In this document: in pieces, positions 11,963 to 35,611 of the stretch
Position numbering within the stretch: position 1 is the first letter of the stretch
Layout: each line of letters opens with the position of its first letter
Assembly (NCBI GenBank): GCA_905480475.1
Contig: CAJQQO010000007.1
Location: 1-39,847, forward strand
Length of the DNA stretch: 39,847 nucleotides
Reading direction: 5' to 3'
Origin: an uncultured Pseudomonadales bacterium
GTDB taxonomy: Bacteria; Pseudomonadota; Gammaproteobacteria; Pseudomonadales; UBA7434
Program-made: the position numbers and the translations under genes
Notes under the pieces: generated by a model
Told to the model about the DNA's origin: nothing
The model's input: only the letters and a program-made list of their open reading frames with translations
Databases searched by the model: none

Positions 11963-12853
11963 TTACAGGCTTGCAACAAGTTCGCAGGCGCGATCTAACT
12001 CAGTGATATCGCCGGTAGTTGGCGTCAGTATTACTTCGTCGTAGCCAATCGCTTCTAGTTGTGCGATGGCTTGTTTAATATGCTCGTTGGAATTTAGCCA
12101 GCATAAATTGGCGGTCTTTTTGGCGTAGTCATCGCCAAAGATTTTCATATAGTCCATCGCAAAATCTTTTAATTGTGTTTCTGCTTGATCTCCCAAGCTA
12201 AACCATAGGGCGACTTGCATCCATGGTTTGCCCTCGCGACCACTGTCTTGCCATAGCGATAAAAAGCGCTGGTAAATCTTTTTTAGTTCGGCCATATCAC
12301 CGGTAAGATTAAAGCCGGCTAAGCCATCGGCCCACTGTACTGCTCGCGCCATGGATTTTGGTCCCAAGGATGAGCTAAATATTTTAGGCCCGCCAGCTTG
12401 TATTGGCGCTGGGCCAATTTTTGGCGCATCAGGAAATTCAAAATTGCCCGACCAAATATCTTTAATGGTTTTAATTTGTTTGTCGAGTCGAGCAAGACGC
12501 GATTTAAAATGCGCCTGTTTGTTCATTAAAGCGTAATCGTATTCACGCATGCCCACGCCAACCCCCAGGGTAAATCGGCCGCTAGACAAAACATCAATAG
12601 TCGCAGCTTGTTTAGCGACGAGTACTTCTTCGTGATAGGGTGTAACTGCGATCAGTGATTGTATGGGAACGCGTTCAGTTAAAACAGCAGCGGCTGACAG
12701 TACGCATTGTAAATCTAAAAATGGGCTGGCGATTCGTTCGCCGGTGGCGAGCCGCGAAAACGGTCCTTGATCAATGGCCGCAATCCATTGTCGTAATGTT
12801 GCTATATCAACATCGGCAACTGTAGACGGAATAGACATACCAATTTTAATCAT
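11963..12853 (-). CDS. LLM-class (luciferase-like) flavin/F420-dependent oxidoreductase
   Basis: KIGMSIPS N-terminus, VLAERVPIQSL-like barrel strand, ATIDVLSSGRFTLGVGVGMREYDY, GPAPIQAGGPKIFSSSLGPKSMARA. Confidence 0.88.
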   Translation of the reverse strand: MIKIGMSIPSTVADVDIATLRQWIAAIDQGPFSRLATGERIASPFLDLQCVLSAAAVLTERVPIQSLIAVTPYHEEVLVAKQAATIDVLSSGRFTLGVGVGMREYDYALMNKQAHFKSRLARLDKQIKTIKDIWSGNFEFPDAPKIGPAPIQAGGPKIFSSSLGPKSMARAVQWADGLAGFNLTGDMAELKKIYQRFLSLWQDSGREGKPWMQVALWFSLGDQAETQLKDFAMDYMKIFGDDYAKKTANLCWLNSNEHIKQAIAQLEAIGYDEVILTPTTGDITELDRACELVASL

Positions 12854-12902
12854 TTTTAATAGCCGGGTTAATTTTACTGAGCTTTATAAAGATTCTCGCG
12901 AG

Positions 12903-13889
12903 CTAATCCTGCATGGCTTTAACATAAGGCCATACCTCAGTTTCAAATAATTTAAGACCTTGCCATGCAAGCGCAGGATCGAGCCCGCCTAATAATGGAC
13001 ATAAAATAAATGTTCTATCGCGACCTAGATTGTTAATCATAGTAACGGCATCTTTAGGGTTTAAAATTTGATAAGCACCACTTGCGCGCAAGTCGTTAAC
13101 ATTAACGCCACCAGCAAATGGGCCAGCGGCTTTACCGTAGGCTTCTTTAGTCCACTCGGCGTAAGATTCAACCACGTGTTGCGCATGAGGCATAATCTTT
13201 TGCCAATCGGCTTCGGGGTCATTACTCACATGTGTGTATATGGGGCCAAGCGCTTTAAATTTTTCGCCGGGATCTGGCTTGCCTAATTCAAGACAGGTGT
13301 TGCGATAGATATCCCAGTTTTCACCGGCGGGCGGATAAAAGCCATCGGCAATATGTGCGGCGCGCTTGGCGACAGCAGGGTGAGTACCGCCCAATAATAA
13401 TCGCGGCGCAGGATTGGGTACGGGTGTAATGGTGATGCTGCGTCCTTCATAGTCAAAAGTTTCTCCGGACCAAGCTTGGCGTAAAAACTTAAAGGCATTA
13501 ACGTATAAGTCTTTTCTATCTTCGCGTCGCTTGCCAAACATTTGAAATTCGTAAGGGCGGTAACCCGCGCCAATAACCACTTCCAAGCGGCCTTGGCAGA
13601 GGTATTGTGCCACCGACAAATCTTCTGCAAGTTTTACCGGATCATAAATAGGCGCTTGCAATATATTCGGCCGTACAGTGATGCGCTGAGTTCTCGCGCC
13701 AATTGCTGATGCCATAGGTATAGGCGATGGAAGATAACCATCATCTGCCGCGTGGTGTTCGCCTAAGCCCACTGCATCAAAACCAATATCGTCTGCCCAG
13801 ACACACATATCTAATGCGGCATCATAGAGCTGCTGTGTATCAGCGCCAAAAGCGGGTGCTCGCATATCAAAGCTAATGACAAATTCCAT
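12903..13889 (-). CDS. LLM-class (luciferase-like) flavin-dependent oxidoreductase
   Basis: MEFVISFDMRAPAFGADTQQLYDAALDMCVWADDIGFDAVGLGEHHAADDGYLPSPIPMASAIGARTQRITV; AEDLSVAQYLCQGRLEVVIGAGYRPYEF. Confidence 0.9.
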   Translation of the reverse strand: MEFVISFDMRAPAFGADTQQLYDAALDMCVWADDIGFDAVGLGEHHAADDGYLPSPIPMASAIGARTQRITVRPNILQAPIYDPVKLAEDLSVAQYLCQGRLEVVIGAGYRPYEFQMFGKRREDRKDLYVNAFKFLRQAWSGETFDYEGRSITITPVPNPAPRLLLGGTHPAVAKRAAHIADGFYPPAGENWDIYRNTCLELGKPDPGEKFKALGPIYTHVSNDPEADWQKIMPHAQHVVESYAEWTKEAYGKAAGPFAGGVNVNDLRASGAYQILNPKDAVTMINNLGRDRTFILCPLLGGLDPALAWQGLKLFETEVWPYVKAMQD

Positions 13890-14123: not shown

Positions 14124-15101
14124 TTACTCTCTTCCTAATACAACTAATACTTTGCGTTTGCGCTCACCTGAGTAGGGTAGTCGACCATGCATAGCTAAAT
14201 GATTATGAACAACGGCGACATCGCCGTCTTGCCATTCAAGATTATAGGATACAGATTTTGCAATCGATACCATGGTATCCAAAAATGTTTTGCTAAGCTC
14301 TGAATCATCACCAAAACATAATGCAGTAGCTGGGTTTTCTTTCACGCCTTGCCAGCCCAAGTAAGCCGCGATAATTTGATTAAAGAAAACTTTACGGCCA
14401 CCTTGTAGCGTTCTAATGGCTGGTAGTGCAGCGGTTTGTGCCACTAACGCGTCGTTATCTTTCCATTGCCAAGTGTAATGTAGGCTGCGCAGTTTTTCTT
14501 CTGCCTCTTCTGCAGAGCCAACACTTAATGTGCCTTTCCAACTACGGCCTTGGCCAGTTTCAGGGTCGTCATCACAAGGCATTAAAGTGGTGTACTTAAT
14601 ACCGACACTTTCTAATTTGTTAGTCAGTTCTGGCTCGGCTTTAACTAGTTCATCGTAAATCGTATCGGATCGACAAATAACTGTTTCACCGCCTTTATCT
14701 GCAGCGCTTTCACAAAATAGTGAAATAATGCTGGGGTAAAATGGCGTTTGTGCCATTTCATTGTGAATAAAAATTTCAACGTCTTTAGGTGCTTCGTTGG
14801 CAGTAAACACTTTTTCGGTATGATTGATTCTCACCGCGTTAGATAAGGATTCTTTATAGGTAAAGTTATCGTAGCCAAAGGCAGAGAAAAACGCATCGTA
14901 ACTCTTGGCGTCACAGACTGGAAAGCCTCTAAATAAAATAGCGCCTGTGCAGCCAAGTTCTTTTTTGATCGGTGTTAAGTTTTTAGCTAACCACTGTTCA
15001 GCTTGTGCTAAGGTCTGCACGGAACCATCATTTTTAATAACGGTTGGAAAATGTTGCTGATTGTATTCAAGATCACTCAGCATGTTACTTGTATAGGGCA
15101 T
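14124..15101 (-). CDS. TauD/TfdA family (SyrP-like) Fe(II)/alpha-ketoglutarate-dependent dioxygenase
   Basis: GAILFRGFPV, metal-binding IHNEMAQTPFYPSIISLFCESAADKGGETVICRS, distal VVHNHLAMHGRLPYSGERKRKVLVVLGR. Confidence 0.9.
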   Translation of the reverse strand: MPYTSNMLSDLEYNQQHFPTVIKNDGSVQTLAQAEQWLAKNLTPIKKELGCTGAILFRGFPVCDAKSYDAFFSAFGYDNFTYKESLSNAVRINHTEKVFTANEAPKDVEIFIHNEMAQTPFYPSIISLFCESAADKGGETVICRSDTIYDELVKAEPELTNKLESVGIKYTTLMPCDDDPETGQGRSWKGTLSVGSAEEAEEKLRSLHYTWQWKDNDALVAQTAALPAIRTLQGGRKVFFNQIIAAYLGWQGVKENPATALCFGDDSELSKTFLDTMVSIAKSVSYNLEWQDGDVAVVHNHLAMHGRLPYSGERKRKVLVVLGRE

Positions 15102-15150: not shown

Positions 15151-16110
15151 CTAATCGTAGATTGGATAAAATTTATTAAACGCGGCTTCACAAAAGTTAC
15201 CGGGGTCATTGAATCTACGATTTCTATTTAGCTCGGATATATCCTGCATATCTTGTTCGCTTAGCGAGAAGTCAAAGATATCAAGGTTCTCTTTTAAACG
15301 TTCGGGCTTGGTGCTTTTGCTAACTAAGGTGCAGCCGCGTTGTACACCCCAGCGCAATACGATTTGCGCCTCAGTTTTTTTGTACTTGGCGGCGATAGCG
15401 ACCACAATCGGCTGTGCTAGTACTGACTCAAAAGCTTCGGCCATATCCAATTCAAAATAGGACATCGCACCTAATGGTGAAAACGCGGTTACCGCAATAC
15501 CGTAGTCTTTGGCTAGGCGTATTAAGCGCTCTTGCGTTAAGTAGGGGTGCGATTCAATTTGTAAATCGGCTGGTTTTATTTTGGCGTAGCTCATTAGGTC
15601 ATTGAGTAGACCTGAGTTGTAGTTGCAAACGCCGATAGTCTTTGCCAAACCTTGCTCAACCAGCGTTTCCATTGCGCGCCATGTTTCAGATAGCGGTACT
15701 GGTGCCGTTTGCATTTTGGGTTCGGCTGCATCTGGATCAAAAAACCACTCGGGTGGGTAGCGAGTTTCAAAGGGTACAAATGGTTGGGCGATAGGAAAGT
15801 GAATTAAATAGGAATCAAGATACTCTAGACCCAAATCGCTTAAGGTTTTTTCCAAGGCCGGTTTGACATGTTCTGGGCTGTGGTAGGTGTTCCACAGTTT
15901 CGAGACAATGGTTAAATCTTCTCGTGTACAAATTCCGTCGGCAATTGCACGGGCTATTCCTTGACCGACTTCGACTTCATTGCCGTAGTCGCAAGCACTA
16001 TCGAGATGGCGATAACCCACTTTGATGGCGTTGTATACAACATCGGCGCATTCTGAATTGGGTATTTTCCATAACCCTAAGCCGATCGTGGGGTTTTGCT
16101 GTTCTGCCAT
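15151..16110 (-). CDS. aldo/keto reductase
   Basis: GLGLWKIPN, YRHLDSACDYGNEVEVGQGI, SKLWNTYHSPEHVKPALEKTLSDLGLEYLDSYLIHFPI, IGVCNYNSGLLNDL, PLGAM, IVLRWGVQRGCTLVSKSTKPERLKENL. Confidence 0.95.
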   Translation of the reverse strand: MAEQQNPTIGLGLWKIPNSECADVVYNAIKVGYRHLDSACDYGNEVEVGQGIARAIADGICTREDLTIVSKLWNTYHSPEHVKPALEKTLSDLGLEYLDSYLIHFPIAQPFVPFETRYPPEWFFDPDAAEPKMQTAPVPLSETWRAMETLVEQGLAKTIGVCNYNSGLLNDLMSYAKIKPADLQIESHPYLTQERLIRLAKDYGIAVTAFSPLGAMSYFELDMAEAFESVLAQPIVVAIAAKYKKTEAQIVLRWGVQRGCTLVSKSTKPERLKENLDIFDFSLSEQDMQDISELNRNRRFNDPGNFCEAAFNKFYPIYD

Positions 16111-16150
16111 TTTTGCCTCGCAAAGCGTTGACTATTGATGTTAATATGTA

Positions 16151-16162
16151 TCTTATATAAGA
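16151..16162. promoter_or_regulatory. TCTTATATAAGA palindrome, putative GntR operator (site A)
   Basis: ATGTATCTTATATAAGACATAT, about 40 bp upstream of the aldo/keto reductase start; same 12-mer at 18964 and 24881. Confidence 0.7.
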
Positions 16163-16339
16163 CATATGTTTTGTCAATCATTTATGTCGGGTATTTTACG
16201 CTACTGCCTAAATTACCAGCGATTTTTTAGCGGATGATTCCTAGGCTTGAGATGCGCAAGCGGGCAAGACGACTTATGCTAAGGTCGGTATCTATTAATA
16301 AGCTTATAAGCCAGCGATTGCTAAGACGGGTTTAGATTT

Positions 16340-18070
16340 ATGTTGAATACACGGGTGAGCCGATTTTTGCCGGGTTTGGTTTGGTTGCAGGGGTATCGGC
16401 AAGGCGTTTTTAAAAGTGATTTGTTTTCCGGCATTACCATTGCATTTATGCTTATCCCGCAGGGCATGGCTTATGCCGTGGTTGCGGGTTTGCCGCCCGA
16501 ATACGGACTCTATGCTTGCATCTTCCCGCCAATTATTTACGCCTTATTAGGTACGTCGAATAAAATCTCCATAGGTCCGGTTGCGCTGGATTCCATTTTG
16601 ATTATTACTGGCTTAAGCGTACTGGCGGAACCGGGTACCGAGCATTATCTGGAGTTGGCGATTGCACTGACTTTATTAGTGGGGTTGATTCAGGGCTTTT
16701 TCGGTCTAATTAAATTTGGTTTTATCGCCAACTTTTTATCGCACCCGGTTATTGTCGGTTATACCTCAGCAGCAGCGCTGGTTATTATTGCTAGTCAGCT
16801 TGAAAGTATGCTGGGAGTGGATGTCGCGGGTGGTAATGTCTTTCAAATAATCTACCAGCTGCTACAACAATTCACCGATTGGAATTGGCTTACCGTTGGT
16901 ATAGGTTTAGCTGGTTTATGGTTTATGATTTATCCCAAACGTTTTTTCAAAAGCTTACCTAGCGCTTTATTATTAATGATAATCGGTATGCTGTGCTCGG
17001 GGATCTGGGGCGCACAAAGCTACGGCGTGGATGTGATTTCATCAGTCCCTCAAGGTTTGCCTTCATTAACAATACCCAAGTTATCCATATCCGAATTGGT
17101 TGGCCTATTGCCAGTTGCGCTAACGGTCGCGCTAATGGGTTATGTAGGGACGATGTCGATCTGTAAATCGCAGGAAAAACCGACCGATAAAATTTCTGCC
17201 AGACCTAATCAAGAGTTGCTGGCGGTCGGTGCGGCAAATTTCCTAGGTGCGTTTTTTAAAGCTTTTCCGGTCTCGGCAAGCTTTTCCAGAAGTGCGGCGT
17301 TTAGAGAGTCGGGCGCTTTAACGCAGGTATCCGCTGTCGTTAGTTCGTTGTTTATTTTGATTACGGTACTGTTTTTAACACCGTTTTTTACCAGTTATCC
17401 CTTACCTAAGGCTTTGCTGTCGGCAATTATTATCGTCTCGGTTGCGGGTTTATTTAAGTATGGACAAATGAAAGTACTGTACCAGCAAAACCGTCGTGAA
17501 TTTTTTATTTTGATGACCACCTTTGTGATTACTTTATTGCTCGGTGTGCAGCAGGGCTTGTTATTAGGTGTCGCGCTGTCGATTCTGATGGTTATCTATA
17601 ATACCGCCAATCCCCATATGACCGAGTTAGGTTCTATTCAAAACGGCAGTTTGTTTAGAAATGTTAACCGCTTTAGTGAGGCTGTAGTGCGAGACGATGT
17701 GCTGATTTTTCGTTTTGATGCACCGCTTTATTTTGCCAACAAGGATTACTTTGTTGAAAATCTTTACGCTTGGGTAAAACGCAGAGAGAGTGGTTTATTA
17801 AAGTATGTGATATTTGATGCGGAGGCGGTGAATAGTCTCGATAGCACGGCGATACTGACGTTGCAGCAAGTGATCGAGAACTTTAAAGATCAGGATATTG
17901 AGTTTTTTATCAGTAATCCGATTGGTCCGGTTAGGGATATTATTAAAAAATCGTCTTTGTGTGATTATATGTGTGAGCAGTCAATGTTTTCAACCATTCA
18001 CGATGCAATTACTTATATTGATGATGGCGTGAATATTCATGCGGAAGAGGCGCTGCAAACTAACGATTAG
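16340..18070 (+). CDS. SulP family anion transporter with C-terminal STAS domain
   Basis: FSGITIAFMLIPQGMAYAVVAGLPPEYGLYACIFPPIIYALLGTS, FPVSASFSRSA, C-terminal STAS segment (VLIFRFDAPLYFANKDYF...LKYVIFDAEAVNSLDSTAI). Confidence 0.95.
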   Translation: MLNTRVSRFLPGLVWLQGYRQGVFKSDLFSGITIAFMLIPQGMAYAVVAGLPPEYGLYACIFPPIIYALLGTSNKISIGPVALDSILIITGLSVLAEPGTEHYLELAIALTLLVGLIQGFFGLIKFGFIANFLSHPVIVGYTSAAALVIIASQLESMLGVDVAGGNVFQIIYQLLQQFTDWNWLTVGIGLAGLWFMIYPKRFFKSLPSALLLMIIGMLCSGIWGAQSYGVDVISSVPQGLPSLTIPKLSISELVGLLPVALTVALMGYVGTMSICKSQEKPTDKISARPNQELLAVGAANFLGAFFKAFPVSASFSRSAAFRESGALTQVSAVVSSLFILITVLFLTPFFTSYPLPKALLSAIIIVSVAGLFKYGQMKVLYQQNRREFFILMTTFVITLLLGVQQGLLLGVALSILMVIYNTANPHMTELGSIQNGSLFRNVNRFSEAVVRDDVLIFRFDAPLYFANKDYFVENLYAWVKRRESGLLKYVIFDAEAVNSLDSTAILTLQQVIENFKDQDIEFFISNPIGPVRDIIKKSSLCDYMCEQSMFSTIHDAITYIDDGVNIHAEEALQTND

Positions 18071-18130
18071 TTGCAAAGACTGTTAAAAAGATAGTTCAGG
18101 AAATAGTTAAAAAAATAATTAAGAAAACAG

Positions 18131-18865
18131 CTAAGTGACACTAACCGAGTAGATAAAACTCCGTGTATCACATAAGCTGGATCGCCATTCAATACATTGA
18201 TTATTGATGGTCTTGGCGATGCGATCGACTCTGATTAGTGGTGTACCCACATCAAGCGCTAGGCGTTTGGCGGTTTGCTTATTGGCCAGCTCGGCTTGTA
18301 TTTGCTCTTCAGCATTGGCGACAGAGATACCGTATTCGCGTTGATACAGTGGGTAAAGCGATGCGGAAACGGCCGCCTGCTGGTCAATTTTTGGAAACAG
18401 CGCCTGCGGAATAATAATCGTTTCAGCGACACAAGGGGTTTGATCAACCATCCGAAGCCGACGAATCTCATAGACTTGTTCTTTATCTTTTAGCGCCAAA
18501 ACACTTTGTTCTTGGCGCTTGGCTGCTCGTTGTTTAATCGATTCCACCACGCCTTCGGGTTTTAGTCGGCTACCATCCTGACGAACCAAGCGGAAAAAGC
18601 GAAAGTTGGAGGCCTCATTGGTGTGTTCGGTAACAAATGTGCCCTTGCCCTGGCGGCGTTCAACCAGCTTTTCGGCCTCTAAGGCATTGAGTGCCTTACG
18701 GACAGTACCTTGACTTACACCAAGTTCCGCCGCTAAAGCGAATTCGCTGGGTAGATTTTCTGATGGTTTCCAGTCGCCATCGGAGATGCGCTTAATCAGC
18801 TGCTCGTATACCTGCTTGTATAGCGGCTGGAATCCCAGCGTGTTTTTCATAATGCTTATATCCAA
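18131..18865 (-). CDS. GntR family transcriptional regulator (HutC/UTRA type)
   Basis: PLYKQVYEQLIKRISDGDWKPSENLPSEFALAAELGVSQGTVRKALNALEAEKLVERRQGKGTFV plus UTRA-like C-terminus. Confidence 0.95.
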   Translation of the reverse strand: MDISIMKNTLGFQPLYKQVYEQLIKRISDGDWKPSENLPSEFALAAELGVSQGTVRKALNALEAEKLVERRQGKGTFVTEHTNEASNFRFFRLVRQDGSRLKPEGVVESIKQRAAKRQEQSVLALKDKEQVYEIRRLRMVDQTPCVAETIIIPQALFPKIDQQAAVSASLYPLYQREYGISVANAEEQIQAELANKQTAKRLALDVGTPLIRVDRIAKTINNQCIEWRSSLCDTRSFIYSVSVT

Positions 18866-18903
18866 TAAAACGGTGTAACAGAACAGGCATATTACGCGAT
18901 TAT

Positions 18904-18915
18904 CATTATATAAGA
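18904..18915. promoter_or_regulatory. degenerate operator copy (CATTATATAAGA; site B)
   Basis: TTATCATTATATAAGACATCTG, about 40 bp upstream of the GntR start; right half matches sites A and D (TTATATAAGACAT). Confidence 0.5.
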
Positions 18916-18963
18916 CATCTGAGCTAGCTTATAAAGGATGTGTGTTTAAAATGGATATCTTAC

Positions 18964-18975
18964 TCTTATATAAGA
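18964..18975. promoter_or_regulatory. TCTTATATAAGA palindrome (site C), overlapped by a second palindrome TAAGATATCTTA
   Basis: GGATATCTTACTCTTATATAAGATATCTTATTG in the divergent GntR / FAD dehydrogenase intergenic region. Confidence 0.7.
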
Positions 18976-19067
18976 TATCTTATTGTAAAAGTTATCATTG
19001 GCAGGTATGATTTTGAGTTAATAGCGGCGACCCGCAGCTTTTGCGTGGTCTTGAATAAGCCTTAGCG

Positions 19068-20690
19068 ATGAAATTAAGAAATAACAATCTCGATAAACTG
19101 GGTAATGGCGTCTACGATGTGCTGATTTTAGGCGGTGGCATTAATGGCGCTGTTGCTGCTGCGTCTCTTGCCGCCAAGGGCGCAAAAGTTGCTTTAATTG
19201 ATAAAGGCGACTTTGCCGGTGAGACTAGCTCCAATTCCTCCAACCTTGCTTGGGGCGGTATTAAATATTTGGAGAGTTACGAGTTTTTGCTAGTTAACAA
19301 ACTTTGCCAAAGTCGAAATCACTTAATGCGCAGTTACCCCTCTACTGTTAAAGAGGTTCGTTTTCTTACCACGATTCAAAAAGGCTTTCGCTATCCGCCT
19401 TTTTTTGTATTTCTTGGTAGCATTTTATATTGGTTTATAGGTCGGTTTTTTACTCAAGCACCAAAATATCTTAGCGCTGGCATGTTAAAGCGCCGTGAGT
19501 CGGTGATTGATACCAGTAGTGTGGCCGGTGGCTTTGAATATTCTGATTGTTATCTGTATGACAATGATGCGCGCTTTGTATTTAATTTTATTCGCTCGGC
19601 CCTAAGCTATGACTGTGTCGCTGCTAACTATGTTGAGTCCTTAGGTTCCGAGCGCGCCAATGGTATTTGGTCAACCGTCGCACGCGATAATATCAGTGGT
19701 GAGATAATCACCATAGAATCCAAAGTACTGATTAATGCCTGTGGGCCTTATGTTGATCAACATAATCAAATGACACAGCAAAACACCGAACATAGACATT
19801 TGTTTTCTAAGGGAGCGCATCTAATTGTCGATCGAATCACCGACAGTACACGAGTGCTGGCATTTTTTGCCAGCGATGGACGATTGTTTTTTGTGATTCC
19901 GATGGGGCCCAAAACCTGCATAGGCACTACCGACACTCAGATTGAATCTCCGCATGCAAGTGTGAGCGACGAGGATCGACAATTTATCTTGGACAATGCC
20001 AATACGCTATTAAGACTTGATCGACCCCTAACCACTGACGATATTATTGCTGAGCGCTGCGGTGTACGCCCATTGGCGTTAAAAGGTGAGGATGGTGTAG
20101 CCGATTGGGTTAAGCTATCGCGTAAGCATGTGATTGATATTAATAATCAAGATCAGCATTTAAGTATATTTGGTGGCAAACTAACCGACTGTATTAATGT
20201 GGGCGATGAGGTAGCAGATATTGTTACCGACTTAGGTATTAAGCTACCCTATGCCGATAAGATTTGGTATGGAGAAGCCGATGATGCAATTAAACAAGAA
20301 TTTGTGCATCAAGCGCGGTTGATGGGTTTGGATGCTATGACATCTCCATCCTCTTCCGAACCTCTAACGCAACGACTATGGCGACGCTATGGAGCCAATG
20401 CAATCGCAATGCTCGAGGCCATTCGCAAAGATCCAGCTAGCGCGCAGTTATTAATAGAAAACGCTGAGTATTTGCGCTGTGAATTAGAGCATACCGCCGA
20501 GCACGAAATGATTACCAAGTTAGAGGATTTTTTACGCCGACGATCTAAAATTGAGTTGGTGATTCCTCGCGAAGATATTATCAATGCGCCGGGTTTATAT
20601 AAGGCTTGCAAAATTTTATTTGCCGATCAAGCCGATGCCAAATTGCAGGAATATGTCGATTCTTTGCAAGTGCAAAATGAAGCCGCTTAA
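19068..20690 (+). CDS. GlpD-like FAD-dependent oxidoreductase (glycerol-3-phosphate dehydrogenase family)
   Basis: DVLILGGGINGAVAAASLAAKGAKVALIDKGDFAGETSSNSSNLAWGGIKYLESYEFLLV; INACGPYVD; GTTDTQIE; DAO C-terminal-like region ...FLRRRSKIEL. Confidence 0.88.
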   Translation: MKLRNNNLDKLGNGVYDVLILGGGINGAVAAASLAAKGAKVALIDKGDFAGETSSNSSNLAWGGIKYLESYEFLLVNKLCQSRNHLMRSYPSTVKEVRFLTTIQKGFRYPPFFVFLGSILYWFIGRFFTQAPKYLSAGMLKRRESVIDTSSVAGGFEYSDCYLYDNDARFVFNFIRSALSYDCVAANYVESLGSERANGIWSTVARDNISGEIITIESKVLINACGPYVDQHNQMTQQNTEHRHLFSKGAHLIVDRITDSTRVLAFFASDGRLFFVIPMGPKTCIGTTDTQIESPHASVSDEDRQFILDNANTLLRLDRPLTTDDIIAERCGVRPLALKGEDGVADWVKLSRKHVIDINNQDQHLSIFGGKLTDCINVGDEVADIVTDLGIKLPYADKIWYGEADDAIKQEFVHQARLMGLDAMTSPSSSEPLTQRLWRRYGANAIAMLEAIRKDPASAQLLIENAEYLRCELEHTAEHEMITKLEDFLRRRSKIELVIPREDIINAPGLYKACKILFADQADAKLQEYVDSLQVQNEAA

Positions 20691-20723
20691 CTAACGGCAT
20701 AAGATTATTTTAAAAAACATTTT

Positions 20724-22826
20724 TTGGGATTTGGGTTGATGGCTAATTTTAACTCTGCTGAGCCAGCGTGGAATGATATTCCTGCATTAGATATAACGGC
20801 TGCGGCAACGCTGCTTGATGCAGAGACGGTTTTATTTAAAACCAGCGAAGGTGATTTGCTGATTAATCTATTTGCCTTTGGCGCGCGCTTGCGTTTTGCC
20901 GAGTGTCAGTTTGGCGACTATGGCATGTTGTTAGATGATGCCTTGCAAAGTAAAGCTGCATTAACACTGGATGCCGATAAGCAGCGTAGTGTTATTAAAG
21001 GTGGCGATTATATTTTAACGGTTCAGCATCAGCCGTTTTCCTTTGAGCTAAGCAAGGCTAATAAAGCGGTTCAAAAATCACCTACTGACGGGCATTTTGT
21101 TCGCCAATTTCGTTTGCCGCCGGTTGCGCGGCTAGATGAAGGCTGGTTTGTAAGTTTGGAGCTGGCATCTAACGAACCCGTCTATGGCTTGGGTGAAAAA
21201 TGGGGTGGTCTCAATAAGCGCGGGCAGTTGTTACGTTCTTATAATCACGATGCACTCGGTGTTAATGCAGAAATATCCTATAAAAATACGCCCTTTGCTT
21301 GGAGCCCTAATGGATGGGGCGCATTTGTTCACACGCCTGCGCCGGTCACTCACGGTGTAGGTTTTGCGCCGTGGTCGCAGCGCGCTTATGGTTTATTGGT
21401 TGAAGATACTTCACTGGATTTATTTTTATTAGCCGGTAATGACGGTGCTGAAATTATTCAGCACTATACCGCCATAACCGGCCGCGCGCCGGTGCCGCCG
21501 TTATGGAGCTTGGGGCTTATTCTTTCTAAAGCCTACTACCAAGATGTTGATGAATTATTAGCAACGGCCCATGCAGTGCGCGAGCATAAAATGCCTTGCG
21601 ATGTAATTACCATTGATGGGCGTGCTTGGCAGGATACTGATACACGATTTGCATTTGAATGGGATCCAAAACGTTATACCGATCCAGCGGCAGTGATTAA
21701 TGAATTAAAGTCTTTGGATTTTAAAGTTTGTATTTGGGAGTACCCATTAGTCTCGGTTAAAAATCCGCTGTTTGATGAGATGTCAAAAAAGGGTTGGCTG
21801 CTAAAAGATAAACGTAGCGGCGAGACCTACCGTTATCAATGGGATATGAGTTGTTTTGGTGAGGTGCTAACACCTCTGCCTGACTCAGGCATTGTCGACT
21901 TCACTCATCCCGATGCCTACGCATTTTGGCTCGAGAGCCATAAGCCTTTATTCGATTTGGGTATCGATATGATTAAGGCAGATTTTGGCGAACAGATCGA
22001 AGAAAATATGCAGGCGCACAATGGTGATTGTGGCGATGTTCTGCATAACGCTTATACACTGCTGTACAACCGCTGTGTTTATGAGGCGGCAGAAAAATAT
22101 TGTCAGACGGGGGCGTTTTTATTTAGTCGCTCGTCGTGGATTGGTTCGCAGCGCTATCCCGCCCAATGGGGTGGTGATCCGCAAGGTGACTGGGGTGGTT
22201 TAGCCGGTAGTTTGCGCGGCGGTGTTTCATGGGGAATGTCCGGTGCACCTTTTTATGCTACCGACGTTGGCGGCTTTTATGGCGATCAACGAGATGCCGA
22301 ACTCTATGTGCGCTGGACACAGGCATCTATTTTTTCTGCACATATTCGTTTGCACGGTATTGGTCAGCGTGAACCCTGGAGTTATATTGACGAGACTTTT
22401 GGTGAAACAGCGAGTAACGCCGCTTCTGCGGCACTGCAGTTACGTTATCGCTTGCTGCCGTATTTACAACAAGCCATGGTAGAGGCAAGTGAAACCGGTA
22501 TGCCAGTGCAGCGTGCTATGGTTTTGGCTTTTCCAAATGATCGCGCGGCGTGGGCATTTGAAGATCAGTTTATGTTTGGCGAGCAACTATTAGTTGTGCC
22601 ATGTTTAGAAGCGGGTGGTAATGTCGAGTTTTATTTACCTGCGGGTAAATGGCGGCGGTTTTTGGCTGACGAAATTTTTGAAGGCGGTCAATACCATCGC
22701 TTAACGTTGGCGTTAGACGATATGGCCGTATTTGTTCGTGACGGTGAAAAGATCCCCTTAGGCCCAGAAATTGAAAATACTTGTGCCCTAGAAGGTAAGC
22801 CGGCCATTGAAACTTATTGGCCATAG
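20724..22826 (+). CDS. glycoside hydrolase family 31 alpha-glycosidase (YicI/alpha-xylosidase-like)
   Basis: VYGLGEKWGGLNKRGQ, putative nucleophile MIKADFGEQI, putative acid/base QWGGDPQGDW, SLRGGVSWGMSGAPFYATDVGGF, RLHG, LLPYL. Translation may start at 20739 (MANFNSAEPAW). Confidence 0.92.
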   Translation: MGFGLMANFNSAEPAWNDIPALDITAAATLLDAETVLFKTSEGDLLINLFAFGARLRFAECQFGDYGMLLDDALQSKAALTLDADKQRSVIKGGDYILTVQHQPFSFELSKANKAVQKSPTDGHFVRQFRLPPVARLDEGWFVSLELASNEPVYGLGEKWGGLNKRGQLLRSYNHDALGVNAEISYKNTPFAWSPNGWGAFVHTPAPVTHGVGFAPWSQRAYGLLVEDTSLDLFLLAGNDGAEIIQHYTAITGRAPVPPLWSLGLILSKAYYQDVDELLATAHAVREHKMPCDVITIDGRAWQDTDTRFAFEWDPKRYTDPAAVINELKSLDFKVCIWEYPLVSVKNPLFDEMSKKGWLLKDKRSGETYRYQWDMSCFGEVLTPLPDSGIVDFTHPDAYAFWLESHKPLFDLGIDMIKADFGEQIEENMQAHNGDCGDVLHNAYTLLYNRCVYEAAEKYCQTGAFLFSRSSWIGSQRYPAQWGGDPQGDWGGLAGSLRGGVSWGMSGAPFYATDVGGFYGDQRDAELYVRWTQASIFSAHIRLHGIGQREPWSYIDETFGETASNAASAALQLRYRLLPYLQQAMVEASETGMPVQRAMVLAFPNDRAAWAFEDQFMFGEQLLVVPCLEAGGNVEFYLPAGKWRRFLADEIFEGGQYHRLTLALDDMAVFVRDGEKIPLGPEIENTCALEGKPAIETYWP

Positions 22827-22918
22827 TTCTATAGGTTAATCGCGCTACGCATTTATTTAGCCTAAAGCGATATCAGTTTTTATAAATAATCCTCTCCACG
22901 GTAGGGAGTAATAATAAA

Positions 22919-24652
22919 ATGGCTTTAGATGATCTCTTATTAACGTTTGGATCGTGCGCGTTTTTTATGGCGCTGGTGGCTTGGGTTTCTTACCAAAAAA
23001 CCAAGGGAGAGGTCGATACCAAAGACGGATATTTTCTTGCCGGTCGTGGTTTAACCGGGGTATTTATTGCCGGCTCAATGCTGTTAACCAATTTGTCTGC
23101 CGAACAATTGATTGGTCTTAACGGCTCAGCCTATGGTTTTAATATGAGCAGCATGGCTTGGGAAGTGACTGCCGGTGTGAGTACTATCTGCATGGCGCTG
23201 ATTTTCTTGCCGCGCTATTTAAGCGGTGCTTTTACTACCTTACCCGAGTTTTTAAGCAGTCGTTTTGATGATGATGTTAGACGCTTAACTGTTATTTTAT
23301 TTATGGTCGGCTACGGCCTTGTCACTATCCCCTCTGTATTATATTCCGGCTCTATTGCGGTGATGCGTTTATTTGATGTGCCGGGATTGCTTGATGTAAG
23401 TTACAGCCAAGGGCTAATGATAACGATTTTAGTTGTCGGCATTATTGGCGGTTTGTATGCGGTATTTGGTGGCTTAAAAGCCGTTGCTATTTCTGACACC
23501 ATCAACGGTTTTGGTTTGCTGATTATCGGCATATTGGTACCGATTTTGGGTTTTGCTGCGCTAGGTGATGGCAGTGTGATGGATGGTATAAAAACGGTTA
23601 CCACTACCCACACTGAAAAACTCAATGCGATTGGCGGGCCTAAAGATCCTACGCCGTTTGGTACGATTTTTACCGGTATGATTTTCGCCAATTTATTTTA
23701 TTGGTGTACCAATCAATATGTTATTCAACGAACGCTAGGAGCGAAAAATCTAGCTGAAGGGCAGAAGGGCGTTATCTTTTCAGGCTTTTTTAAAATTCTG
23801 GTGCCTTTTATGATGATGATGCCGGGCATTATTGCATTTCATCTTTATGGTGGTGGGCTGCAATCGATTGACTTGGCGTTCCCGCAATTAATTAAAGATG
23901 TGTTGCCAGTTTATATGTCGGGGTTTTTTCTGGCGGTATTATTAGGTGCGGTATTTAGTTCGTTTAACTCTTTATTAAATAGTGCAGCAACACTTTTTTG
24001 TTTAGATGTTTATGAACCCTTAAAGAAAGAAAAAGTTAGCGATGCGCAAATGATTAAAGTCGCTAAGATCGCCAGTATAGTGATCGCTATCTTTTCTTTT
24101 ATTGTCGCACCATTATTGCAATACGCCCCTGAAGGTTTGTGGCAGATAATTAGAATATTTACCGGCTTTTATAATATCCCCGTTGTTGCTGTAGTTATCG
24201 TGGGTTTATTTACCAAGCGTGTTCCGGGTCTTGGCGCTAAGGTTGCCATTATTTTTCATATTATTGCTTATGGCTTATTAAAGTTTGTTTTTGACGAGCA
24301 GATCGATATTCACTTCTTACATCTTTACGCAATATTATTTGTAATTGAAGTCGCGATTATGTTGCTTATTGGCTATTTCAAACCCTTAGAACAGCCTTGG
24401 CAGTTTGAGCGCAAGCATGAAGTTGAGTTAGTGCCTTGGGCTTATGCGATACCAGTATCCATTACCTTGTTTTCATGCATTGCCGCTTTGTATGTATTGT
24501 TCTCACCCGTTGGTTTGGTTACCGGATTCGGCCCACTATTTTGGCCAGTGATGACACTTATATTGCTGCTAAATATTATTGGCTGGTTTTATAGTTTGAA
24601 ACGCTGGCGTTACACCTATGCGGATTACATTAAGAAAGAGACTGCTTCGTAA
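22919..24652 (+). CDS. sodium:solute symporter (SSS family, SglT-like)
   Basis: DGYFLAGRGLTGVFIAGSMLLTNLSAEQLIGLNGSAYGFNMSSMAWEV; multi-TM; GAVFSSFNSLLNSAATLFCLDVYEPL. Confidence 0.94.
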   Translation: MALDDLLLTFGSCAFFMALVAWVSYQKTKGEVDTKDGYFLAGRGLTGVFIAGSMLLTNLSAEQLIGLNGSAYGFNMSSMAWEVTAGVSTICMALIFLPRYLSGAFTTLPEFLSSRFDDDVRRLTVILFMVGYGLVTIPSVLYSGSIAVMRLFDVPGLLDVSYSQGLMITILVVGIIGGLYAVFGGLKAVAISDTINGFGLLIIGILVPILGFAALGDGSVMDGIKTVTTTHTEKLNAIGGPKDPTPFGTIFTGMIFANLFYWCTNQYVIQRTLGAKNLAEGQKGVIFSGFFKILVPFMMMMPGIIAFHLYGGGLQSIDLAFPQLIKDVLPVYMSGFFLAVLLGAVFSSFNSLLNSAATLFCLDVYEPLKKEKVSDAQMIKVAKIASIVIAIFSFIVAPLLQYAPEGLWQIIRIFTGFYNIPVVAVVIVGLFTKRVPGLGAKVAIIFHIIAYGLLKFVFDEQIDIHFLHLYAILFVIEVAIMLLIGYFKPLEQPWQFERKHEVELVPWAYAIPVSITLFSCIAALYVLFSPVGLVTGFGPLFWPVMTLILLLNIIGWFYSLKRWRYTYADYIKKETAS

Positions 24653-24880
24653 AACATTACCGAATAAAAATTGTTTGTTTAATAAGAGACCGTTTAAAAC
24701 GACAGTGTTTAATACGGCATTGAAGAATAAGAAAAAATTGTTTATTCAGTATGCAAATGTTTTGTATTGTTTATTTCTTAAGCGAAAGGGTCTTTTCTGC
24801 ATGCTAATAAATGACTGAAATTTCGCCGAATCATATGTCGATAATTTAATACTCCGCTGATTCGTACACTAGTTACTATA

Positions 24881-24892
24881 TCTTATATAAGA
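24881..24892. promoter_or_regulatory. TCTTATATAAGA palindrome, putative GntR operator (site D)
   Basis: ACTATATCTTATATAAGACATCATC, about 185 bp upstream of the TonB-dependent receptor start. Confidence 0.7.
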
Positions 24893-25076
24893 CATCATCT
24901 GTATGATACTTCGCTTCTAGTGTCTTATGGGTAATGCTGCTGGTTGAATAGCAATCAGTGAGGATTTACCAAATCAAGTCGCTACGAGTATTGGGAAGTT
25001 TTGAAAAATAACTACCGGCAGTTTTGTTAGACCGGTTATAACTAGATCAAAAAAATACCAACGGGAGAGTTCCATT

Positions 25077-27341
25077 ATGATGAAAAAAACAGCAGTGAGT
25101 CGGGCTTTGGCCTTGATGATACCTGCGAGTCTGGCTTTTCAGGCTCCAGTCGCGTTAGCGTTGGAAGAGATTGTTGTGACATCTCAGAAGCGCGAACAAA
25201 GTTTAAGTGATGTTCCTATCGCTGTATCAGTATTAGGAACAGAACAAATCGATTCTACTTTTTCAAATAGTATTGAATCACTTCAGGCGTATATTCCTTC
25301 GGTGAGTTTCCGAACGGGTAATACTACGCGTAACTCGGCATTAACCGTGCGTGGTATTGGTACTGTTTCGTTTAGTATTGGTGCTGAGCCAAGTGTCTCA
25401 ACAGTAGTTGATAACGTTGTGCTTGGTCGTTCTGGCCAAGCGTTTGGCGATTTGTATGACTTGGAGCGCATAGAGGTATTACGTGGTCCACAAGGCACTT
25501 TATTCGGTAAGAATGCATCGGCAGGTGTAGTTAACTTAGTGACTAAAAAGCCAACCGAAGAGTTTGAAGGCTATGTTGATTTCTCTTTCTTCCAAGATGA
25601 TGAGTATCGAGCTAAGGCGCGTGTATCGGGTAAATTAACCGATAGAATTAACGCCAGCGTAACCGTGATGGACGCGGAGTTTGATGGCTATATCGATAAC
25701 GTATTCACTAATGAAAAAGTTAACGGCTATGACAAGCAGGGCATTCGTGCGATGTTTGATGTAGAAGTCAGTGATGACACACAAGCATTAATTATTTATG
25801 AGGATTATGATGCCGATAATGACTGCTGTGATGATCTGGTAGGTAGAAACACTAATGCCTCGCGTCCATTAGATCCTTCGGTATTTGTTTCAGGCTCGGG
25901 TTTGAATCTTGATCAGCGCAGTGTCGATCATGATTTCCAAACACGTACGCTAGACTCAACAACCGCGCTGTCTTTGCAGTTGGTTAAATCTATTGGCGAT
26001 TATACCTTAACGTCGATTACTGCTAGAAGAACCTGGGAAAACACAGAGTTCCGCGAAGGTGATTTCACTTCACAAAATGGTGATTCAACAGATATCGTAG
26101 ATTTTTCTACCGTTGGTTTCCAGTTGCATGATGTGGGTCCACAAGAGTGGCGTCAATTGTCGCAAGAGATTCGCCTAGCGTCTCCCGGTGGTGAATTGGT
26201 TGATTGGCAAGTGGGTGGTTTTTATTGGGATATCGATTCGGCCCGTAACTTTACCCGTGAAGCCAGTTGTCAGGATACCGCTGATAACACCGCTATCCTC
26301 GTTGCAGCGAACGCCGCAGATACCACTTTGGGTTTAACTTGTCAGCAAAATGATATTGTTTCTGCAACTGCATTTATGAGCACCGAGTTTACTAACTACG
26401 CGGTGTTTGGTGATGCGAGCTGGAATCTTACCGATGCGTTTAGCGTGTTGTTTGGTTTGCGCTATACCGATGACGAAGTAAGCTTTAAACATAATCGTCG
26501 AAACAATGATGAGTTTGGTCGTCGAGGTGTTGGTGTTAGACAAGCGACGCTGGATACAGATTTTGACGGCAAAACTAGCGATACCAATTTGTCTGGTAAG
26601 TTAGGTGTTCAATTTAACCTTGGTGAGAGCAATTTACTTTATGCCACTTACTCTACCGGTTATAAAGGTCCTGCGTTTAACGTTTTCTACAATATGAGCG
26701 CTAACGACATTAACCCAATTGATGCAGAGGAATCTGACTCGTATGAACTGGGTTATAAATACACCGGTGAAAACTTGTTCGTAAGCTTTGCTTTATATCA
26801 AACTGAGATTGATGATTTTCAAGCGAATGACTTCGATGCTTCTGATGGTGTAACGACTACCGGCTTTACCAATGGTGGTGATGTTGAAACCCAAGGCGCA
26901 GAGCTTGACTTTCAATGGCAAGCACTTGAAAACTGGATTCTTCGTGGCGGTATAGCTATTTCTGAAGCGGAAACCACCTTAGGTGATGACCTACCATTTG
27001 CACCAGATTCTAAATACTCACTTACTAGCGATTACACTATAGAGATGAGCAGCGGTTCAGAATTGGTACTTAATGCTTCTTATGTTTATACCGACGAGCA
27101 GTTGTCAGGTAATATTGGCCAAAATGAAATGACTAACCCAGAAGTTTTGCTTCCGGACTACGATATAATTAACGCCAGCGTGACTTACCGTGCACCGGAT
27201 GATACTTATTCAATATCATTAATCGGTAAAAACCTAACTGATGAATCTTATGCAACCACTTACAGTGGTGACGGCTTCCGATATCAAATTCCGCGTGATG
27301 CTGAAAGATACTTTGGTGCCAATTTCAGGTTTAACTTTTAA
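25077..27341 (+). CDS. TonB-dependent outer-membrane receptor
   Basis: Signal peptide, TonB box-like EEIVVTSQKREQSLSDVPIAVSVL, plug motifs VRGIGTVSFSIGAEPSVSTVVDNVVLGRSGQAFGDLYDLERIEVLRGPQGTLFGKNASAGVVNLVTKKP, C-terminal ...YFGANFRFNF. Confidence 0.97.
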   Translation: MMKKTAVSRALALMIPASLAFQAPVALALEEIVVTSQKREQSLSDVPIAVSVLGTEQIDSTFSNSIESLQAYIPSVSFRTGNTTRNSALTVRGIGTVSFSIGAEPSVSTVVDNVVLGRSGQAFGDLYDLERIEVLRGPQGTLFGKNASAGVVNLVTKKPTEEFEGYVDFSFFQDDEYRAKARVSGKLTDRINASVTVMDAEFDGYIDNVFTNEKVNGYDKQGIRAMFDVEVSDDTQALIIYEDYDADNDCCDDLVGRNTNASRPLDPSVFVSGSGLNLDQRSVDHDFQTRTLDSTTALSLQLVKSIGDYTLTSITARRTWENTEFREGDFTSQNGDSTDIVDFSTVGFQLHDVGPQEWRQLSQEIRLASPGGELVDWQVGGFYWDIDSARNFTREASCQDTADNTAILVAANAADTTLGLTCQQNDIVSATAFMSTEFTNYAVFGDASWNLTDAFSVLFGLRYTDDEVSFKHNRRNNDEFGRRGVGVRQATLDTDFDGKTSDTNLSGKLGVQFNLGESNLLYATYSTGYKGPAFNVFYNMSANDINPIDAEESDSYELGYKYTGENLFVSFALYQTEIDDFQANDFDASDGVTTTGFTNGGDVETQGAELDFQWQALENWILRGGIAISEAETTLGDDLPFAPDSKYSLTSDYTIEMSSGSELVLNASYVYTDEQLSGNIGQNEMTNPEVLLPDYDIINASVTYRAPDDTYSISLIGKNLTDESYATTYSGDGFRYQIPRDAERYFGANFRFNF

Positions 27342-27402: not shown

Positions 27403-27654
27403 GTCCGCATTTCCTGCCATCCCTCCATGCTTATTTTACTTTTCCGGTGCGATGGGTACTTGCCTTAGGTAGGGTTTTGAATTACTTTCCTAAGCCTTTG
27501 ACGACGGTCAAGGTTAAGCTGATAATGTCCCGCGAGGGTATGGCTTGGCTCAGCTGCTTGCAGCTGTTGGAATGGGCATTAAACCTCGGTACACGTAATA
27601 CGATTCCGAATTAGTGTGTGGTGTTGGTCACAAGAAGTAACACAAGGTAATCCT

Positions 27655-28374
27655 ATGTCTTTAAGTGCGAGCTTTCAGCCGCTTTATAAGCAAGTATACG
27701 ATTTGTTAACTGGCCGATTGGTTGAGGGGCATTGGAAGCCTTCTGAGTCGATACCCAGTGAAATGGCGCTTGCTGAGGAGTTAGGCGTTAGCCAAGGTAC
27801 GGTGCGCAAAGCATTAAACCAAATGGTGGCAGAGAATTTGCTCGAACGGCAACAAGGCAAGGGCACCTATGTTGCCGAGCATACGCAAGAGAGTTCCTTG
27901 TTTCGTTTTTTTCGCCTGCGTGAGCCACATGGTGAAAGCCTAATTCCTGAGACGCAGGTACTATCATCTTCACGTCGAGCCGCCACTCAAAAGGAGCGTG
28001 ATCAGCTTGGGCTAACGGCCAAAGTGCAAGTGGTAGAGTTGCTGCGCTTACGATTTTTAAAAGGTGAGCCAGCGATCTTTGAAAAGGTTATTCAGCCGCT
28101 GTCGGTATTTCCGAATATTGATAAAGAGCAAGTCTTACCTAATTCCCTATATACGCTTTATCAGGAAAAATACGGCATTAGTATTGTCTCAGTGCGAGAC
28201 GAATTGCGCGCCACTGAATTACCCAAGGCGTATGCCAAGCATCTAGGCTTGCCAGCGGGTTCGCCAGTACTGAAGGTAGAGCGAGCGAGTATTCATATCG
28301 ATGGTAGGGTCGTTGAGCTAAGTCACGCCTATTGCAGTACCAAGCACTTTGTTTATTCGGTTCAGCATAAATAA
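27655..28374 (+). CDS. GntR family transcriptional regulator (UTRA type), paralogue of 18131..18865
   Basis: SASFQPLYKQVYDLLTGRLVEGHWKPSESIPSEMALAEELGVSQGTVRKALNQMVAENLLERQQGKGTYV. ATG at 27655 preferred over the ORF-track start 27616 because it aligns with the paralogue and has AAGG upstream. Confidence 0.93.
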   Translation: MSLSASFQPLYKQVYDLLTGRLVEGHWKPSESIPSEMALAEELGVSQGTVRKALNQMVAENLLERQQGKGTYVAEHTQESSLFRFFRLREPHGESLIPETQVLSSSRRAATQKERDQLGLTAKVQVVELLRLRFLKGEPAIFEKVIQPLSVFPNIDKEQVLPNSLYTLYQEKYGISIVSVRDELRATELPKAYAKHLGLPAGSPVLKVERASIHIDGRVVELSHAYCSTKHFVYSVQHK

Positions 28375-34101: not shown

Positions 34102-35589
34102 ATGAATATCACTTGGAAAAACACCGTTGAACATACGCTCAAGCCTAGCCCGCATCCGTATTTAAGCGGTGCGTGGACACCCAACTTTACCGAGTACGAC
34201 GCCGAGGATATGGAGGTTATTGGCAGCATTCCCACGGATATTGACGGCATCTATATACGTAATACCGAAAACCCGGTGCACGAGGCGCTGGGTCATTACC
34301 ATCCGTTTGATGGCGATGGCATGTTACACACAATGGCTTTTAAAGACGGTAAGGCGGTATATCGCAATCGCTTTGTGCGAACCAAGGGTTTTGACGCCGA
34401 GCAAGAAGCTGGCAAGGCTTTGTGGACAGGGTTTGTTAATGATGCGTCTAAATCAAAGAGGCCCGGCACCGGTGTGCAAGGTTATTTAAAAGATGCATCG
34501 TCGACTGACGTGATTGTTCATGCAGGACAAATTCTTTCAACTTTCTGGCAATGCGGTGATGGTTATAGGCTTAACCCCTATACGCTTGAGCAATATGGCG
34601 CGGAGCGCTGGACACCTATTGACGGCATTTCCGCGCATCCCAAAGTTGATGAGCGCACCGGCGAGTTATTATTTTTTAATTACTCCAAGTACCCGCCGTA
34701 TCAGCACTACGGTGTGGTTGATAAAAATAATAAGCTGGTTCATTACACACCGGTGCCATTACCCGGGCCACGCTTGCCACATGATATGGCGTTTAGCAAA
34801 AACTATTCTATTTTGGTGGACCTCCCGATGTATTGGGACCCGGAAAAACTTGCCCAAGGTTTACATCATCCTTGTTACTTTCCCGATCAAACTACACGCT
34901 TTGCGATTTTGCCACGCTATGGCGGCGAAAAAGATATTATGTGGTTTGAGGCTGCGCCTACTTATGTTTTGCATTGGATGAATGCCTATGAAGAAGGTGA
35001 TGAACTTATTCTCGACGGCTATTTTCAAGACAAGCCGTCGCCACCGCCATTGCCGGGTTTACCCAAAGCAGTAGGTTTATTAATGTCGAATATTGATCAG
35101 CACTCCTTTCAATCCAAACTGCATCGCTGGCGATTTAATTTAAAAACCGGTGAGGTGAATGAGCAGCATCTTGATGAGCGCGTATTGGAGTTCGGCACAT
35201 TTAATCAACGGTATGCGGGTCATAAATCGCGTTACTTGTATTCCACTTGGGGCGAGCCCGGTTGGTTTTTATTTTCGGGTTTGGTTAAGCATGATTTGGC
35301 TACCGGCGAATCTACAGAGCTGGCTTTTGGTGAGCAGCGTTTTGGCAGCGAGGCACCGTTTGCGCCAAGGGTAAACGCCTGTAGTGAGGACGATGGGTAT
35401 CTGGTCAGTTTTATCACGGATATGCAAGCCAATCGCTCGGAGTGTATTTTAATCGACGCCAAAGATATTGAGGCGGGGCCTGTCTGCCAAATTATATTGC
35501 CGCATCGAATTGCCAGCGGCACGCATGCCACATGGGCTGATGGCCCAGCCACGCGTGAAGATATAAAACGGTCGCAATGTACAGCCTAA
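34102..35589 (+). CDS. carotenoid oxygenase family protein (RPE65/CCD/lignostilbene dioxygenase superfamily)
   Basis: IDGIYIRNTENPVHEALGHYHPFDGDGMLHTMAFKDGKAVYRNRFVRTKGF; RLPHDMAFSKNYSILVDLPMYWDP; HWMNAYEEGDELILDGYF; GTHATWA. Confidence 0.92.
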   Translation: MNITWKNTVEHTLKPSPHPYLSGAWTPNFTEYDAEDMEVIGSIPTDIDGIYIRNTENPVHEALGHYHPFDGDGMLHTMAFKDGKAVYRNRFVRTKGFDAEQEAGKALWTGFVNDASKSKRPGTGVQGYLKDASSTDVIVHAGQILSTFWQCGDGYRLNPYTLEQYGAERWTPIDGISAHPKVDERTGELLFFNYSKYPPYQHYGVVDKNNKLVHYTPVPLPGPRLPHDMAFSKNYSILVDLPMYWDPEKLAQGLHHPCYFPDQTTRFAILPRYGGEKDIMWFEAAPTYVLHWMNAYEEGDELILDGYFQDKPSPPPLPGLPKAVGLLMSNIDQHSFQSKLHRWRFNLKTGEVNEQHLDERVLEFGTFNQRYAGHKSRYLYSTWGEPGWFLFSGLVKHDLATGESTELAFGEQRFGSEAPFAPRVNACSEDDGYLVSFITDMQANRSECILIDAKDIEAGPVCQIILPHRIASGTHATWADGPATREDIKRSQCTA

Positions 35590-35611
35590 CAATAAAACTT
35601 AGAGGTGGGTG

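Follow-up and report, generated by a model that had tools for sequence, protein, structure and literature searches.

A palindrome shared by dispersed promoters and a predicted GntR regulon, probably for sulfoquinovose use, in an uncultured Pseudomonadales bacterium

Gene cluster and palindrome copies

The window analysed here, a stretch of 39,847 nucleotides from an uncultured Pseudomonadales bacterium, contains a cluster in which two minus-strand genes encode a TauD-type Fe(II)/2-oxoglutarate dioxygenase (14124–15101), a candidate SqoD-like sulfoquinovose (SQ) dioxygenase, and an aldo/keto reductase (AKR; 15151–16110), a candidate SquF-like 6-dehydroglucose reductase. The plus strand encodes a SulP permease with a STAS domain (16340–18070; a candidate sulfite/sulfate exporter), a GlpD-like FAD dehydrogenase (19068–20690), a GH31 glycosidase closer to YicI than to YihQ (20724–22826; a candidate SQ glycosidase), a YidK-like sodium:solute symporter (22919–24652), and a TonB-dependent receptor (25077–27341). 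There are two regulator genes, encoding the HutC-subfamily protein GntR1 (18131–18865, minus strand) and its paralogue GntR2 (27616–28374, plus strand). The dioxygenase has the TauD fold and the invariant H113/E115/H305 residues, and its closest fold among solved structures is At3g21360, a match that does not settle the substrate; the AKR gene adjoins it here and in most of the 80 relative loci described below. Two luciferase-like monooxygenase genes (11963–13889) also adjoin the dioxygenase gene, and these were rejected as regulon members since no homologue lies beside TauD in any of the 80 loci. A gene of the RPE65-family carotenoid-oxygenase type and a thiolase gene (34102–36850) lie outside the regulon.

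The 12 bp palindrome TCTTATATAAGA, to which no strand is assigned, is present in three exact copies: operator A (16151–16162), between the divergent AKR and SulP genes at a position kept in relatives; operator B (18964–18975), in the divergent region between GntR1 and the GlpD-like gene; and operator C (24881–24892), upstream of the TonB receptor gene, where it is conserved (38 sites). All three had been reported in the first-pass annotation and each is found by a pattern scan, as is the degenerate copy CATTATATAAGA (18904–18915, likewise unstranded), which lies proximal to GntR1 and has two mismatches to the 12-mer. Scanning at up to two mismatches gives nothing in the window beyond these four, every one of them intergenic as claimed, and the middle site is indeed compound, with the palindrome TAAGATATCTTA (18971–18982) covering the right arm of operator B. 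The degenerate copy is not significant by itself, with 2.3 matches at that level expected by chance; we note that in a close relative (G256) the corresponding GH31/GntR1 intergenic region likewise holds a second, imperfect site. The annotation further linked at least three transcription units through these sites, and the three that it named stand, but the count was too low; operator A lies upstream of the divergent SulP gene as well, and the number of units is therefore four to five.

A genome-wide motif scan, which had been suggested as a check, finds the exact 12-mer only at these sites, with all three copies in the 3.54 Mb draft genome falling inside 8.7 kb of the window, a count that applies to this draft (376 contigs, 88% complete). 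Base composition predicts 0.005 exact copies per window and 0.48 per genome, and the probability of three copies within a given 8.75 kb is about 3e-10. Because a reversed control pattern also has one copy in the genome, the case rests on clustering and conservation and not on the raw count. When 381 members of the order were scanned, genomes without such a GntR gene yielded few matches, and the 20 that were inspected sit at unrelated genes or in coding positions, and were discarded as further regulon sites.

Conservation of the site and its association with GntR genes

Comparison of intergenic regions in related genomes, the second suggested check, shows that the site recurs at orthologous promoters. 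Fourteen relatives carrying related GntR proteins were drawn from the family and order of the host, and the exact 12-mer is present in eight of them, with 1–3 copies each that are mostly at equivalent genes. We also collected 80 named loci with a TauD protein, covering other marine gammaproteobacteria with the dioxygenase/AKR pair; 55 of these contain the 12-mer, for a total of 100 copies, while the next most common 12 bp palindrome has eight. Among 18 named genomes, 14 carry 1–4 copies each, compared to two in total for the reversed controls, and the copies in relatives are nearly all at regulon genes. All of these counts are over related sequences, and are thus not independent.

The association with the regulator gene was examined in the 73 loci that span 10 kb or more, with a site defined as a match within one mismatch. 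A site is present in all 39 loci that encode a related GntR protein, compared to 19 of the 34 that do not (the other 15 lack it), and there are 138 near-matches in this comparison against five for the reversed control. Several of the 19 site-bearing loci that lack a GntR gene come from genomes of the Paraglaciecola type, where the cluster is split; P. polaris has its GntR gene together with a site, and its GH31 gene elsewhere on the same contig. Porticoccaceae-type loci (L097–L100) have a one-mismatch site, TCTTATATAATA, upstream of the AKR gene, and GntR was undetected within most of these loci. A chance origin, or a structural AT-rich repeat that no regulator recognises, is conceivable, and the sequence is AT-rich and the two-mismatch window scan yields roughly the expected number of matches; however, the counts are far above every control and are coupled to the GntR gene, and this co-occurrence contradicts a chance repeat so directly that we give the idea practically no weight.

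Genes that have become separated from the cluster also carry the site. In Planctobacterium marinum (L178) a GlpD-like gene distant from the cluster has an operator immediately upstream, Pseudomaricurvus has one at a separate TonB receptor gene, and in the G111 genome the TauD–AKR pair and the GntR gene are on different contigs, with an operator at both. Since these genes, unlinked in other genomes, keep the site, it behaves as a marker of the regulon. The proposal that the dispersed units form a single regulon thus gains support from rarity in the genome, recurrence at orthologous promoters, co-occurrence with GntR, and the unlinked members, and we regard it as well founded at the level of comparative sequence analysis.

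Regulators and the relationship to SdhR

Both proteins have an N-terminal GntR domain (PF00392) and a C-terminal UTRA domain (PF07702), as expected of the HutC subfamily, and GntR1 was also modelled. The recognition helix of GntR1 is SQGTVRKAL, and that of GntR2 is identical. The operator does not match the HutC consensus NyGTMTAKACNy, its core being TTATATAA versus GTMTAKAC. The GntR2 type is the sole regulator in some relatives, and in one of these (G011) a cluster with the GntR2 type only has both sites, such that GntR2 may suffice; we therefore consider that either paralogue may bind the operator. No site was found upstream of GntR2 itself at up to three mismatches. In the same G011 cluster the TauD gene is in two frames (L070:1-711), split near 215–220, which suggests either a frameshift or an assembly error.

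The regulators that accompany the exact site nearly all have the helix SQGTVRKA, the two exceptions having SQGTTRKA or SQGTMRKA, and regulators with other helices (SVGTLRKAL, for example) are found near variant palindromes such as TCATATATAAGA. At eight loci (L035, L036, L037, L039, L046–L048 and L050) related GntR clades adjoin the variants TCATATATAAGA or TCATATATATGA; several variant-palindrome loci adjoin either an amidohydrolase gene or a split gene pair of the altronate/galactarate-dehydratase type, the latter presumably resembling sulfolactate sulfo-lyase. It is possible that the variant palindromes and helices form an operator/recognition-helix series.

A literature text search for the 12-mer gave a single match, a study (Suvorova et al. 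2015, PMC4494728) in which TCTTATGTCTTATATAAGACATAAGA is the motif given for SdhR, a HutC-subfamily regulator named as departing from the family consensus. The extended operator is approximately CTTATG-TCTTATATAAGA-CATAAG, with the CTTATG flanks derived from the consensus of 100 sites, and the window copies agree with the published 26 bp SdhR motif at 16–20 of the 26 positions. SdhR and the window system therefore have in common the operator core and flanks, the helix SQGTVRKA, and the GntR plus UTRA domains. When 369 genomes of the class were searched with the extended motif, matches were found at additional TauD–AKR clusters, and others lie upstream of GntR genes that adjoin sdhC, or malic-enzyme, HpcH and MaoC genes; from their neighbours and motif, we infer that the GntR proteins encoded beside sdhC or malic-enzyme genes are SdhR.

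One account of this similarity would be that the window regulator is itself SdhR, and the regulon one of central metabolism, as the identity of the operator to the published consensus and the shared recognition helix might suggest. However, the regulon GntR proteins form a clade of their own (support 0.958), apart from the SdhR-like proteins encoded next to sdhC or malic-enzyme genes (0.995), in a FastTree phylogeny built from a modest alignment. There is also no exact site at sdh genes in the host draft genome, and no succinate dehydrogenase subunit (0 of 20) among the proteins scanned in the region; adjacency to sdhC was seen solely in another genome (L205), with an SdhR-like protein, and not in the window. 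The targets are thus sdh genes for SdhR versus the TauD, AKR, GH31, symporter and TonB genes here, and the tree and target genes together lead us to rule out SdhR identity as very improbable. We conclude that the operator type was already known, but that the GntR clade is different and the regulon is new; no prior description of it was found in the literature searched, with RegPrecise, Suvorova 2012 and Ye 2023 lying outside that search.

Promoter overlap, substrate and known systems

A predicted sigma-70 promoter of the AKR-TauD unit (16150–16177, minus strand; TTGACA, a 16 bp spacer, and TAAGAT) overlaps operator A with its spacer and −10 box. Although a single match to the promoter consensus is near chance (0.7 expected), in relatives a TTGACA-like −35 box begins 32 nt before the operator at 19 of 39 AKR sites and 17 of 21 GH31 sites, and a −35-like box begins 15 nt before it at nine of the 39 AKR-upstream sites. 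At either offset the operator would lie over the −10 box or the transcription start, consistent with repression by occlusion, and the overlap with the AKR and GH31 core promoters argues for repression as the predicted mode. Scans of the GntR1/GlpD and TonB sites gave no box above chance, and the mechanism is less sure there.

Operator conservation, GntR co-occurrence, the promoter-box overlap and the unlinked members are all visible in the sequence; binding, repression, effector and substrate we infer. We think it probable that a HutC-subfamily GntR repressor uses TCTTATATAAGA as its operator and that the regulon most likely serves sulfoquinovose use. With no inducer present, a dimer of GntR1 and/or GntR2 would occupy the operators and block RNA polymerase at the AKR-TauD, GlpD-GH31-symporter and TonB promoters, with GntR also shutting its own promoter (autoregulation). 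The combination of GntR and UTRA domains makes release by a small ligand the expected mode, and a substrate-derived ligand binding to the UTRA domain would thus free the DNA. The TonB receptor and the symporter would then import sulfoquinovose glycosides, from which the GH31 enzyme would liberate sulfoquinovose; the TauD-type dioxygenase would cut its C–S bond, the AKR would reduce the cleavage product to glucose, and the SulP permease would deal with the sulfur.

Sulfoquinovose, a sugar that contains sulfur and occurs in the membranes of plants and algae, has an output of billions of tons yearly, and its degradation by bacteria contributes to the sulfur cycle. The residues of YihQ that contact the sulfonate we take to be Gln288, Arg301, Trp304 and Tyr508. 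The Gln288 equivalent is kept in the GH31 proteins (55 of 55 sequences), but Arg301 is mostly replaced by Asp, and Trp304 and Tyr508 each by Phe, and with three of the four signature residues replaced we rejected a YihQ-type sulfoquinovosidase assignment. It is because only one of the four is kept that we refer to sulfoquinovose as the likely, rather than the demonstrated, substrate of the regulon.

The regulon could also be real but serve another sugar, such as alpha-xylosides or some other sulfonated or plain sugar, with a YicI-type alpha-xylosidase as the GH31 and an AKR of the xylose-reductase type. Consistent with this, the YicI alpha-xylosidase model gives the GH31 protein 445 bits, versus 209 for PRK10426, the best PDB matches of the AKR are aldose/xylose reductases, and the ED-type dehydratase of the related clusters described below is above the L-arabinonate dehydratase cut-off. 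However, an oxygen-dependent TauD-type dioxygenase with an AKR suits C–S cleavage, SulP or TauE permeases are recurrent, and the dehydrogenase of the ED clusters is closest to SQ dehydrogenase. Moreover, Vibrio splendidus and V. ulleungensis, which are named as sulfo-SDO positive in passages of PMC13372026, carry a TauD–AKR pair resembling that of the window. We therefore consider another sugar unlikely, and retain sulfoquinovose as the probable substrate. The Vibrio TauD–AKR loci (L101, L104, L163 and L164) have neither a related GntR gene nor a site, and a different regulator is likely there.

The 12 bp signature, being nearly absent elsewhere in these genomes, is a cheap marker for the regulon, and points to uptake components (the TonB receptor and symporter) and candidate enzymes (the non-YihQ GH31 and the GlpD-like dehydrogenase) that do not figure in the available passages on sulfo-SDO. 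It also offers a clean example of sister regulators that retain one operator while controlling different pathways. A broader possibility, in our view slightly short of an even chance, is that one GntR clade with its near-invariant operator is a general sulfoquinovose switch in marine gammaproteobacteria, spanning sulfo-SDO and sulfo-ED, that the sister clade, SdhR, retained an identical operator at respiratory genes, and that the linked GH31 represents a new sulfoquinovosidase type distinct from YihQ.

Among the known systems, CsqR is a DeoR-family protein, unrelated to GntR/HutC. This protein (also YihW) is the local regulator of the E. coli yih sulfoquinovose genes (PMC10991401), and the window GntR proteins would likewise be local regulators of sulfoquinovose catabolism, although of a different family. 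In the sulfo-SDO pathway, as outlined in passages of PMC12890257, SqoD turns sulfoquinovose into sulfite and 6-dehydroglucose, and SquF reduces the latter to glucose; both enzymes were characterised in Marinobacterium aestuarii (Ye et al. 2023, via PMC12890257). The window cluster resembles that system (sulfo-SDO, or sulfo-ASDO) in pairing an Fe/2-oxoglutarate dioxygenase with an NAD(P)H-type oxidoreductase, but unlike it, as far as those passages describe it, has a YicI-like GH31, a TonB receptor, a symporter, and a defined regulon. The sulfo-ED pathway of Pseudomonas putida is not the one in the window; however, four genomes (G291, G326, G036 and G111) have the regulon GntR clade and operator on clusters that resemble it, with an SQ-dehydrogenase-like SDR (whose best PDB match in G291 is 9gwu, the P. 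putida SQ dehydrogenase), an IlvD-type dehydratase, an HpcH aldolase, an aldehyde dehydrogenase, TauE, and a TRAP transporter.
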